NCBI RefSeq assembly: GCF_005083565.1
Contig: NZ_CP034891.1
Coordinates: 186,001-250,000, forward strand
Direction of reading: 5' to 3'
DNA length: 64,000 bases
From: Buchnera aphidicola (Acyrthosiphon lactucae)
GTDB taxonomy: Bacteria > Pseudomonadota > Gammaproteobacteria > Enterobacterales > Enterobacteriaceae
In this document: piece by piece, positions 13,344 to 57,811 of the stretch
How the letters are laid out: each line of letters begins with the position of its first letter
How positions within the stretch are numbered: position 1 is the stretch's first letter
The notes under the pieces: model-generated
What the model was told of the DNA's origin: nothing
What the model saw: the letters and a program-made list of their open reading frames with translations, nothing else
Database searches by the model: none
Translations under genes and position numbers: made by a program

Positions 13344-13937
13344 TTAAGAATATTTGCTTAAATATTCAGCAACTCCTTCCGAAGAAGCTTTCATACCCTT
13401 TTTCCCTTTTTCCCAATTAGCAGGGCATAATTCTCCAAATTTATTATGAAATTCTATAGCATCTACCATTCTTATCATTTCTTTTATATTGCGTCCAAAT
13501 GGCAAATCATTTACAACTTGATGACGTATAGTCCAATTAGAATCAATTAAAAAAGAAGCTCTCAGTGCTATGCCAAGATTTGGATGTTCAATTCCATAAG
13601 ATTTTTGAATATTATGTTTTATATCAGATACCATAGGAAAGTTTATTTTCCCAATGCCACCATTTTTAATTAATGTATTTTGCCATGCTTGATGAACAAA
13701 AACATTATCAATGGATACACCTACAATTTTTACATTTCTTTTTTTAAATTCTGCATATAGTGTATTAAATTCTATAATTTCAGATGGACATACAAAAGTA
13801 AAATCCATTGGCCAGAAAAATAGTACGATTGATTGACCATTAGCATATTCTTTAAGATCAAATTGTTCAACAATTTGATTATTTTTTAAAATTGCAGGTG
13901 CTATAAAATTAGGTGCTTTTTGTGTGACTAAAACCAT
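13344..13937 (-). CDS. ahpC: Typical 2-Cys peroxiredoxin (AhpC/TSA)
   Basis: This protein reduces hydrogen peroxide and organic peroxides. The peroxidatic cysteine is Cys50 in DFTFVCPSE and the resolving cysteine is Cys171 in GELCPANW, so it is a typical two-cysteine enzyme of the Prx1/AhpC class (197 residues). No ahpF is adjacent, so the reductant is probably thioredoxin. The gene is divergent from ung with a 78-base spacer. Together with sodA at 18.5 kb it is part of the small oxidative-stress set retained by the symbiont. Some annotations call the orthologue tsaA. Confidence 0.93.
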   Translation of the reverse strand: MVLVTQKAPNFIAPAILKNNQIVEQFDLKEYANGQSIVLFFWPMDFTFVCPSEIIEFNTLYAEFKKRNVKIVGVSIDNVFVHQAWQNTLIKNGGIGKINFPMVSDIKHNIQKSYGIEHPNLGIALRASFLIDSNWTIRHQVVNDLPFGRNIKEMIRMVDAIEFHNKFGELCPANWEKGKKGMKASSEGVAEYLSKYS

Positions 13938-49398: not shown

Positions 49399-50318
49399 TT
49401 AATTATTCATATTTAAAATTAATAAGACTAGTTCATCAAATGATATTCCTATTTCTTTTGCGGACATTGGAACTAAACTTCTATTTGTCATACCAGGTAT
49501 AGTATTTACTTCTAATAACCAAAATTTATTTTGATTATCTAATATAAAATCAATTCTCCCACATCCACTACATCCTAGTGTATTCCATGCTAAGATTGCT
49601 ATTTTTTTTAGTTCTGTTTCTTGAGTTGTATTTAATCCACTTGGACATAAATATTGAGTAGAAGAAGATATATATTTAGCATTATAATCATAAAAATTAT
49701 TTTTAGTAGAAATATGAATAGAAGGTAATATCTTTTCACCTAGAATAGATACTGTATATTCTTTTCCTTTTATAAATTTTTCAATAAGAATATTATCATC
49801 ATAATTAAAAGCTTTTTTTATAGCATTATTAAGTTCTTCAAGACAAGATACTAGTGTTATACCTATACTTGATCCTTGACTATTTGGCTTAATTAAAAGA
49901 GGAAATCCTAATTTTAATGTTTTTTTTAATATAGATTCATATAAAGATGGAGTATTTTTTTTTTTGAAAGATAAATATCAGGCGCTGTCAAAAGACCTTG
50001 AGATCTCCATAATAATTTAGTTCTAAATTTATCTATAGAAATTGAAGAAGACATAATTCCACTACCTGTATAAGGAATATTTAAATATTCAAGAACTCCT
50101 TGAATACTACCATCTTCACCACCTTTTCCATGTAATGAAATGTATACTTTATCAAAACCTTCTTTTTTTAACCGCATTATAGAATGATCACGTGTATCAA
50201 TTGGATGTGCATTTATTCCAGATTTTAATAAACTTTTAAGAATGGCATATCCTGATTTAATTGAAATTTTTCTTTCAGAAGATATTCCACCTAATAAAAC
50301 TGCTATTTTTTTTTTCAT
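49399..50318 (-). pseudogene. ddlB: D-alanine--D-alanine ligase DdlB, frameshifted in A11 run
   Basis: DdlB joins two D-Ala for the peptidoglycan stem. The first 125 or so codons are normal (VLLGGISSERKISI, HGKGGEDGSIQG, PYTGSG). The frame is lost in 11 A on the minus strand (49955-49965) and stops at 49926. In the other phase the remainder is fully open and conserved to TAA at 49399: GFPLLIKPNSQGSSIG, RIDFILD, LLEVNTIPGMTNRSLVPM. Twelve or nine A would restore a single frame of 306 residues, exactly the E. coli length. The intact distal part argues for retained function through slippage, a very recent mutation, or a homopolymer sequencing error. Start codon overlaps the murC stop by four bases. 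Confidence 0.9.
49955..49965 (-). repeat. A11 tract carrying the ddlB frameshift
   Basis: Eleven T on the plus strand, A on the coding strand. Twelve or nine would restore the frame. Confidence 0.9.
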
Positions 50319-55381: not shown

Positions 55382-56454
55382 TAACACACCTTTAAAGAAA
55401 TAAGTCCTATTAATAGTAATATTAATGACACGATCCAAAATCTTATAATAATTAAAGGTTCTAATATTCCCTTGATTTCATAATGATGATGAATTGGTGC
55501 CATTTTAAAAATTCTTTTTTTTCTAATTTTGAATGATATAATTTGTAATATAACAGATATTGTTTCACAAACAAAAACACCACCCATAATAATTAGCAAT
55601 AACTCTTGATGTAATAATATTGCTATAGTCCCTAAAGAACCACCTAATGATAGAGAACCAACATCTCCCATAAATACCTTGGCTGGGTAGCTATTAAACC
55701 ATAAAAAACCTAATCCTGAACCAATAATTGCCATGCATAATATAGCTAATTCTCCTGAATTTTTTACATAACGAACATGTAGAAAATTAGAGTTATTTAT
55801 ATTTTCACTAAATAAAGCTATTAATGTAAAACCACAAGTTAAAAAAATAACAGGCATAATAGCTAAACCATCTAATCCATCTGTAAGATTGACTGCATTA
55901 CTAGTTCCTACTATTATAAAATAAGAAAGAAATATGTATAAATAATTTATTTCAAAAGAATTTTTTATATAAAAAGGAATTATTAATTCAGTAGAAATGA
56001 TATCTTTATTATAAAAATTTATTATACAAATAAATCCTAAAGCAAAAATAGATAACCAAAAATATTTGTATCTTAGTTGTAATCCCTGAGTATTTTTATA
56101 TTTTATTTTTTTATAATCATCTATTAAACCTATTACTCCATATCCTATTAAAATACTGGTAACATACCAAATATAGATATTAGATAAATTACAATATAAT
56201 ATTGTTGAAAAAAATATAGAAAAAATTATAAAAATTCCACCCATAGTAGGGGTATTATTTTTTGAATAGTGTGTTTTTGGTCCATTTTTTCGTATTATTT
56301 GATATTTTTGTAATTTTTTTAGGTGATAAATAAAATATGGTCCAATGTATAAATTAATAAAAAAAGAAGTGAATAAGCTAAATATTGCACGATATGGAAG
56401 ATAAGAAATAACATTTAAATTCAAATTTAAGTATTTATTGAAAAAAATTAACAT
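55381..56454 (-). CDS. mraY: Phospho-N-acetylmuramoyl-pentapeptide transferase
   Basis: MraY loads the UDP-MurNAc-pentapeptide onto undecaprenyl phosphate, making lipid I. It is a ten-helix membrane protein of 357 residues (E. coli 360). The catalytic aspartates are in GLIDDYKKI and NLTDGLDGLA, and the HHHYE motif is present as PIHHHYEIKG. It overlaps the end of murF by seven bases and the start of murD by one. Confidence 0.98.
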   Translation of the reverse strand: MLIFFNKYLNLNLNVISYLPYRAIFSLFTSFFINLYIGPYFIYHLKKLQKYQIIRKNGPKTHYSKNNTPTMGGIFIIFSIFFSTILYCNLSNIYIWYVTSILIGYGVIGLIDDYKKIKYKNTQGLQLRYKYFWLSIFALGFICIINFYNKDIISTELIIPFYIKNSFEINYLYIFLSYFIIVGTSNAVNLTDGLDGLAIMPVIFLTCGFTLIALFSENINNSNFLHVRYVKNSGELAILCMAIIGSGLGFLWFNSYPAKVFMGDVGSLSLGGSLGTIAILLHQELLLIIMGGVFVCETISVILQIISFKIRKKRIFKMAPIHHHYEIKGILEPLIIIRFWIVSLILLLIGLISLKVC

Positions 56455-57811
56455 TTTTTGTTGTCCTTAACAAGTTCTTCGACTACTTCTTCCATTTTTG
56501 CACTACGAGATCCTTTAATTAATATTACAAATTTTTTTTTCTTTAATAAAAAACTTTTTAAATGTTCATTTAATTTTTTTTTATCAAAAAAATGTTTTCC
56601 ATTATTAAAAACTTTAGTAATTTCATTACTCATATTCCCGATACTGAAAATTTTATTAATTTTAGATAAATTAGCAGTATTTCCTATCATTTTATGGTAT
56701 AACATACTTTTTTCTCCTAATTCAGCCATGTCTCCAGTAACCAATATTTTATAACCTGGCATTTTTTCTAATACTTTTATTGCTGAAATCATAGATGAAA
56801 CATTAGAATTATAAGTATCATCAATTAAAATTTTATTAGGTTCTAATATAATAGATTCTAATCTTCTTGAAATTACAGGAGTTTCTAATAGTCCTATTTT
56901 TATTTTTTTTAAAGGTATTTTAAGTGCAAAAGAAAGAGCACTGGCTGCTAATGCATTAGATATGTTTTGATAACCTAGAAATGGTAATGAAATATTTATT
57001 TTTCCACATGGTGTATGCATTGTGAAAGATGTACCATATACATGAATTTTAATATTACTACAAAAAAAGTCACTACATTTTTTTTTTTAATAGAAAAATA
57101 TAAAATATTATTTTTTTTTATATCTTTTTTCCATTTTGAAAGATGATGGCTATCTAAATTAATAATAACTGTGCCATTCGTTTTTAAACCAGAAAATATT
57201 TCTGATTTTGCTTTAGACACTCCTAATAATGATTTAAATCCTTTTAAATGAGCACAATGAATATTATTAATTAATATAATTTCTGGCTTACTAATATTAC
57301 TAGTATAAGAAATTTCACCTGGTTTATTTGCTCCTAATTCAATTACAGCATATTTATGTTCTTTTGTTAACTGTAATAAAGTCATGGGAACACCAATATT
57401 ATTATTTAAATTCTCAATAGTAGATAACGTATTTCCATTCTTTCTAAGTATAGATGCTGTCATTTCTTTTACTGTAGTTTTTCCACAAGAACCAGTAATA
57501 GCTAATAGCTTTACATGACTTTTTTTACGGATCCAACTAGCAATTTGACCTAAAGCAATAGATGTATTTTCTACTATAATATATGAAATATGAGATTTTA
57601 TATATTTTTGTGTAATAAAAGAGGAACATCCTTTTTCAATAGCCTCGTTTATAAAAATATGAGCATCAAATTTTTTACCTATTAAAGCAATAAAAAGACA
57701 ACCTGGAATAATCTTTTTGGTATCAATAATAATTTTATCTATTAATAAATTTGTTCCATGTAGTTTGCCATGAGTGATTGAAGCAATTTTTTTTAACGAT
57801 AAAGAAATCAT
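56448..57811 (-). pseudogene. murF: UDP-MurNAc-tripeptide--D-Ala-D-Ala ligase MurF, frameshifted in A11 run
   Basis: MurF attaches D-Ala-D-Ala, the product of DdlB. The N-terminal part runs normally from 57811 (SLKKIASITHGKLHG, ATP loop TGSCGKTTVKEM, NLNNNIGVPMTLL, AVIELGANKPGEI) to 11 A on the coding strand (57078-57088), then loses frame and stops at 56996. In the other phase the sequence is open and conserved through IHVYGTSF, GYQNISNALAA, LIDDTYNSN, TGDMAELGEKS and the ending VKGSRSAKMEEVV-like KGSRSAKMEEVV. Twelve or nine A would give about 454 residues (E. coli 452). MurF is essential for peptidoglycan and no second copy is seen, so rescue by slippage is plausible. Start overlaps the murE stop by four bases. 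Confidence 0.9.
57078..57088 (-). repeat. A11 tract carrying the murF frameshift
   Basis: Eleven T on the plus strand, A on the coding strand, between ATT and TGT codons. Twelve or nine would restore the frame. Confidence 0.9.

Follow-up and report, generated by a model that had tools for sequence, protein, structure and literature searches.

The murF gene of Buchnera aphidicola (Acyrthosiphon lactucae) is one A short in the DNA, and we consider it probable (roughly 0.73) that it is a functional gene rescued by RNA polymerase slippage. The missing A lies in a long A-run inside a poly-lysine stretch. RNA polymerase would slip on this run and insert one A in a share of the transcripts, and these slipped mRNAs would encode the whole MurF. 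The unslipped mRNAs would lead to a product of 271 residues, without the C-terminal half and presumably non-functional. We infer the production of full-length MurF, a slip that takes place in transcription and not on the ribosome, and its efficiency.

Neither the phenomenon nor its mechanism is new for symbionts of this kind. Rescue of poly(A) frameshifts by slippage has been described for Blochmannia and Buchnera (Tamas 2008 and Wernegreen 2010, via PMC5009743, PMC3017870 and PMC3164680), and slippage in cell-wall genes of an aphid symbiont is summarised in PMC5009743. Like the genes described in these symbionts, murF carries a single indel in a long A/T-run, is otherwise intact, is conserved on both sides of the run and belongs to the cell-wall genes. 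The pattern described here, read from DNA sequence, extends to 29 of 35 genus genomes at one site. The idea of slippage is not new for Buchnera murF either (PMC3164680, PMC5009743). Homopolymer frameshifts of this gene in five Buchnera genomes were reported in 2011 (PMC3164680); the gene and the type of lesion are the same as here, and Sg, Ak and Ua (broken) and Ap Tokyo (intact) are present in both sets. That report differs in viewing the lesions as independent inactivations of a loss-prone gene, with slippage mentioned as possible, whereas the shared site and the selection described below argue for a maintained gene. In the Buchnera of Myzus persicae, gene models were merged across poly-A indels, with both sides conserved and under apparent purifying selection (PMC3890641); the passage on these indels names no gene, and "mur" has no match in the main text of that paper. 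New here are the genus-wide pattern, the selection tests across the junction, a second break in ddl and the link to the wall of the Rhopalosiphum maidis (R. maidis) symbiont.

The murF frame break

The window, i.e. the whole stretch of 64,000 nucleotides that was analysed, corresponds to positions 186001-250000 of contig 1, in a genome of 653,487 bases in 3 contigs whose chromosome has 642,335 bases. The features discussed are listed in Table 1. The preliminary description had located a frame change of murF inside 11 A, and a T11 on the plus strand indeed lies at exactly 57078-57088, which is A11 in the coding sense of the gene. The sequence context of the run is ATT AAA AAA AAA AAT, with A AAA AAA in register. 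The length of murF is 2 mod 3, i.e. one base short, so that an mRNA with one additional A (A12) or with two A fewer (A9) regains the frame and would encode the whole protein, as had been anticipated. The claim that both parts retain MurF (UDP-MurNAc-tripeptide--D-Ala-D-Ala ligase) also holds. Taken together, the two halves span positions 1-251 and 247-453 of NF008041, each half alone scoring below the whole-protein cutoff of this family (321 and 235.1 versus 551 bits). Furthermore, residues 1-240 of PDB 1gg4_A, which we take to be the E. coli MurF enzyme, are matched by the 5' part (E 5.3e-72), and the stop codon of the 3' part is found at 56448-56450. The lesion is thus a single indel in a long homopolymer with both sides open, as in endosymbiont genes rescued by slippage.

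Table 1. Features of murF and ddl in the window, and murC loci of the genus broken near codon 100
Feature	Position or locus	Strand	Description
murF, whole	56448-57811	-	frame change inside A11
murF, 5' part	57089-57811	-	codons 1-241, frame of the start ATG; NF008041 (MurF) 1-251, 321 bits
murF, frame-change site (A11)	57078-57088	-	three in-register AAA codons; slippery heptamer A AAA AAA
murF, 3' part to stop codon	56448-57077	-	frame restored by one extra A; NF008041 247-453, 235.1 bits
Linker, from A-run to internal ATG (57018-57020)	57021-57077	-	conserved in the 3' frame, omega 0.124
Out-of-frame tail of the unslipped product	56996-57077	-	about 26 codons past the run, then stop
ddl (D-Ala-D-Ala ligase), both parts	49399-50318	-	NF002378 positions 6-126 and 127-300
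Second A11 frame break, in ddl	49955-49965	-	one base short like murF; found by reading
Broken murC	L112, L118, L120, L123, L125, L126, L128, L129, L140, L141		near codon 100

Distribution of the break in the genus and in the family

The genus search covered 36 genomes, including the one under study (G000). A murF gene was found in 35 of them, the exception being G024. It is broken in 29 copies and in frame in the other six (G005, G013, G022, G026, G029 and G034). All 29 breaks are located in the same run, after codon 240-242; 28 of them are one A short and G030 alone belongs to the other frame class. A comparison of run lengths in related Buchnera had been put forward as a check. It gave A9 or longer at this site in 34 of 35 genus genomes (the genome under study included), with A9 to A14 in broken copies (at least A10 in 28 of the 29) and A7 and A11 to A14 in copies that are in frame. 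The sole genome with a run shorter than A9 (G005, A7) has an in-frame murF. Among the nine cluster genes scanned, murF included, no A9+ run is more widely shared, the next site being found in 22 of 35 genomes; on this ground, the murF run goes beyond chance.

The 5' part is devoid of in-frame stops in all 35 copies. In 28 of the 29 broken copies, the 3' part is open over 206-215 codons, and in G018 it ends at 184. Since the 3' parts were trimmed at the first in-frame stop, their lack of stops is by construction and the evidence lies in their length. The G018 copy carries an additional break close to the C-terminus and, given this second disruption, may be truly decaying.

This distribution bears on whether the homopolymer was sequenced or assembled wrongly in this genome. 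Although 454 data have been called unreliable in AT-rich regions, with low coverage in poly-A-rich ones (PMC3890641), the site and the class are identical in 28 of the 29 broken genomes, and in-frame copies were recovered too. One class is favoured so strongly that random errors are a poor explanation, and an error of this kind, disfavoured by the genus-wide pattern, appears extremely improbable. The agreement with PMC3164680 for murF (G001, G002, G016 and G029) is not independent support, since the same assemblies are concerned.

Outside the genus, at least 178 of 198 family genomes gave a MurF match. The site was inspected in 15 non-genus genomes, picked mainly for their small size (16 searched, 15 with a match). 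Fourteen of these 15 copies correspond to one full-length MurF match, that of G065 with one TAA reported inside. The gene of G079 has an A9 at the site and is in frame, and that of its congener G212 is again one base short at this position. A separate contig scan kept the best 80 of 591 relatives; these 80 are all other bacteria, with 39-53% identity, and were left aside in the analyses.

The genus genome without murF, G024, served as a control: it gave no match to murF, ddl or murG, yet ilvH is present. The peptidoglycan cluster has apparently been lost in this strain. In this one genome, which has not kept the pathway, the tested genes are absent altogether rather than merely shifted.

Selection on both sides of the run

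Omega values were obtained from codon models on fixed topologies, the tree being built on six other genes of the cluster (mraW in 35 of the 35 rows, ftsI in 33, murG in 35, ftsW in 27, mraY in 34 and murD in 24; split or unparsed genes are missing). In the 29 broken copies of murF, omega is 0.082 before the run and 0.101 after it, and the control genes of the same genomes gave 0.080 (murG) and 0.074 (mraW). In the six in-frame copies, the values are 0.054 and 0.060, respectively, with 0.090 for murG and 0.059 for mraW. Omega is therefore somewhat higher in the broken set than in the in-frame copies, with controls going either way, and a mild relaxation is possible.

A clade of 13 genomes, all one-short, includes the Buchnera of S. 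graminum and R. maidis and would by inference correspond to Aphidini. The 3' part has an omega of 0.110 in this clade (2 delta lnL about 590 against neutrality). In the same 13 genomes, the linker (alignment codons 1-18 of the 3' part) has an omega of 0.124 (2 delta lnL 30.4 against an omega of 1). Two more broken groups, of six and four genomes, gave 0.087 and 0.066 for the 3' part; the linker omega of the four-genome group (0.003, with a tree length of 31) is unreliable. Neutrality is rejected for the 3' part in all three groups, which together hold 23 of the 29 broken copies. Moreover, broken copies show no lengthening of amino-acid branches past the break relative to in-frame ones (means of 0.145 versus 0.169). 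The 3' parts of broken copies share a mean pairwise amino-acid identity of 0.69 (minimum 0.59), and their conservation is thus not explained by recency. The frameshift is therefore common to several lineages (29 of 35) and followed by a region under purifying selection (omega 0.101), as in slippage-rescued genes. According to these selection results, the function of the gene would be kept despite the breaks.

Relaxed selection and piling lesions would mark murF as a recently inactivated pseudogene, hit repeatedly and independently in a mutation-prone run. Instead, omega stays at about 0.1 past the break over deep clades, the rate does not accelerate there, the 3' parts keep their length in all broken copies except that of G018, and this copy alone bears a further break. 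Such inactivation is improbable on these grounds, even though four independent events are the published reading (PMC3164680), loss-only parsimony from an in-frame root costs just 8 steps versus 7, and between 3 and 5 of the 9 cluster genes are broken in several genomes.

The linker results also concern the possibility of a MurF made of two chains, in which the 3' part would initiate at the internal ATG and assemble with the 5' part. Indeed, 30 of 35 copies have an ATG no further than 20 codons into the 3' part. However, selection acts in the 3' frame on the stretch ahead of this usual ATG, and five broken copies out of 29 are devoid of ATG over the initial 94 codons of the 3' part; two of these five (G003 and G035) also lack GTG and TTG over this length. 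Disfavoured by both the selection on the linker and the absent start codons, a split protein has a very slim chance of being the explanation. More generally, the strong selection found before the run, after it and on the linker makes a pseudogene or a split two-chain protein unlikely.

Slippage of the polymerase or frameshift on the ribosome

Over the nine cluster genes, 49 frame breaks are one-short versus three in the other direction. In Buchnera transcripts, 151 of 157 insertions were found in homopolymers, increasing with run length, and deletions were far fewer there (PMC5574713). This excess of insertions agrees with the dominance of one-short breaks (49 to 3 overall, 6 to 1 in ddl), without proving slippage. 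The direction bias was rejected as a proof, since a deletion bias at the DNA level predicts the same. Some data count against slippage: the RNA survey of Buchnera LSR1 reports no frame-restoring transcription error (PMC5574713), six genomes have in-frame copies, and breaks pile up in some genomes.

The dnaX gene of E. coli undergoes a -1 ribosomal frameshift on an A AAA AAR heptamer that is in register. A shift of this type on A AAA AAA would produce full-length MurF from an unaltered mRNA. The murF run resembles dnaX in having such a heptamer in register (it reads A AAA AAG in 12 members of the 13-genome one-short clade), and 28 of the 29 breaks belong to the class amenable to rescue by a -1 shift. 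It differs from dnaX by its much longer A-run and by the lack of detectable upstream SD-like pairing or downstream structure. None of the 29 broken copies has a favourable anti-SD pairing upstream (random places in the 5' part average -2.0), and no structure was detected in the 70 nt downstream (mean z of +0.33 over the 29 copies). Furthermore, broken runs are A10 or longer in 28 of 29 copies, although the heptamer requires fewer A, and the other frame class (G030) is beyond the rescue of a -1 shift. Stimulated ribosomal frameshifting was dropped, as neither of its two signals was found. As a whole, we consider a -1 shift unlikely as the explanation. A slip of +1 in transcription and a -1 shift on the ribosome yield the identical protein, and a ribosomal contribution is possible.

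The preliminary description had already proposed that murF is a working gene rescued by slippage. The working gene finds support in the breaks of 29 out of 35 copies, their one dominant frame class, and the selection on both sides and on the linker. The proposed slippage has to face the survey of LSR1, in which no frame-restoring error was seen (PMC5574713), and the -1 ribosomal shift on A AAA AAA, which had not been considered. That earlier reading is likely right in its outcome and unproven in its mechanism.

History of the frame state

On the midpoint-rooted tree, a one-short root costs 7 steps under unordered parsimony, and an in-frame root or a loss-only history costs 8. The likelihood of a one-short root on this tree is 0.985 with equal rates and 0.73 with three state frequencies. 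Parsimony cannot separate an ancestral frameshift (7) from losses alone (8). Given these step counts and root likelihoods, four independent inactivations are compatible with the topology.

Tentatively, the one-A-short run of murF may be an ancestral and long-maintained recoding site of this Buchnera genus (Aphidinae by inference), from which in-frame copies derive. In combination with similar sites in murC, murE and ddl, this run would set the dose of the D-Ala-D-Ala and stem-peptide steps. We give this conjecture somewhat less than even odds. If true, it would explain the walls of Aphidini Buchnera that are said to lack murC, murE and murF.

Frame breaks in ddl and other genes of the cluster

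Every other mur gene of the cluster had been taken to be present. This needs to be corrected, as ddl is also frame-broken, at the A11 at 49955-49965. In this genome, murF and ddl are thus both broken, i.e. both steps of D-Ala-D-Ala addition. A census of frame breaks in the window versus two relatives retrieved only murF and a doubtful hit at 13836; since it missed ddl, this census is incomplete. In the genus, ddl is split near this site in seven of 35 genomes, six of these breaks being one-short.

The murC gene is broken near codon 100, at one A-run, in 10 of 35 genomes (Table 1); all these copies are one-short, with runs of A10 to A13. The 20 murC copies whose run has at most 8 A are all unbroken, and five copies with A11 or more are in frame. 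Outside murF and murC, the breaks are not always located in A-runs, as exemplified by a T10 in ftsW (G005) and a T8A7 junction in murD (G007). The names of the cluster genes were verified with NCBIfam, except mraW, whose name in this cluster we assume.

Some genomes accumulate broken genes: five of the nine in G030, four each in G001 and G007, and three each in G009 and G018. This pile-up could also be read as a decay of the pathway. If every broken gene needs rescue, the pathway either runs on small fractions or is decaying. In G030 (L140), the five broken genes include the sole murF of the other frame class, and this strain may be losing the pathway.

The cell wall of R. maidis Buchnera

The genome G007 (L118) is the published chromosome of the R. 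maidis Buchnera (PMC6451198). In PMC9116674, murC, murE and murF are listed as lacking in this symbiont, and its cell wall was labelled; coding sequences with internal stops or frameshifts had been removed before the analysis. The labelled aphid line, Rma-NM-1 (PMC9116674), need not be the sequenced one. Our analysis indicates that G007 has all three genes, each shifted once, in a long A-run: an A10 after codon 241 in murF, an A10 near codon 100 in murC and an A10 near codon 176 in murE.

The words "slippage" and "homopolymer" are both absent from the main text of PMC9116674, and among the open-licence papers searched we found none that links long-A-run shifts to the wall puzzle of R. maidis. 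Genes with a frameshift may be dropped by annotation pipelines. Should such sites prove functional, the gene-loss tables of AT-rich symbionts would be wrong for essential pathways, and the cell-wall puzzle would gain a testable answer. The murD gene of G007 is likewise broken, at its T8A7 junction.
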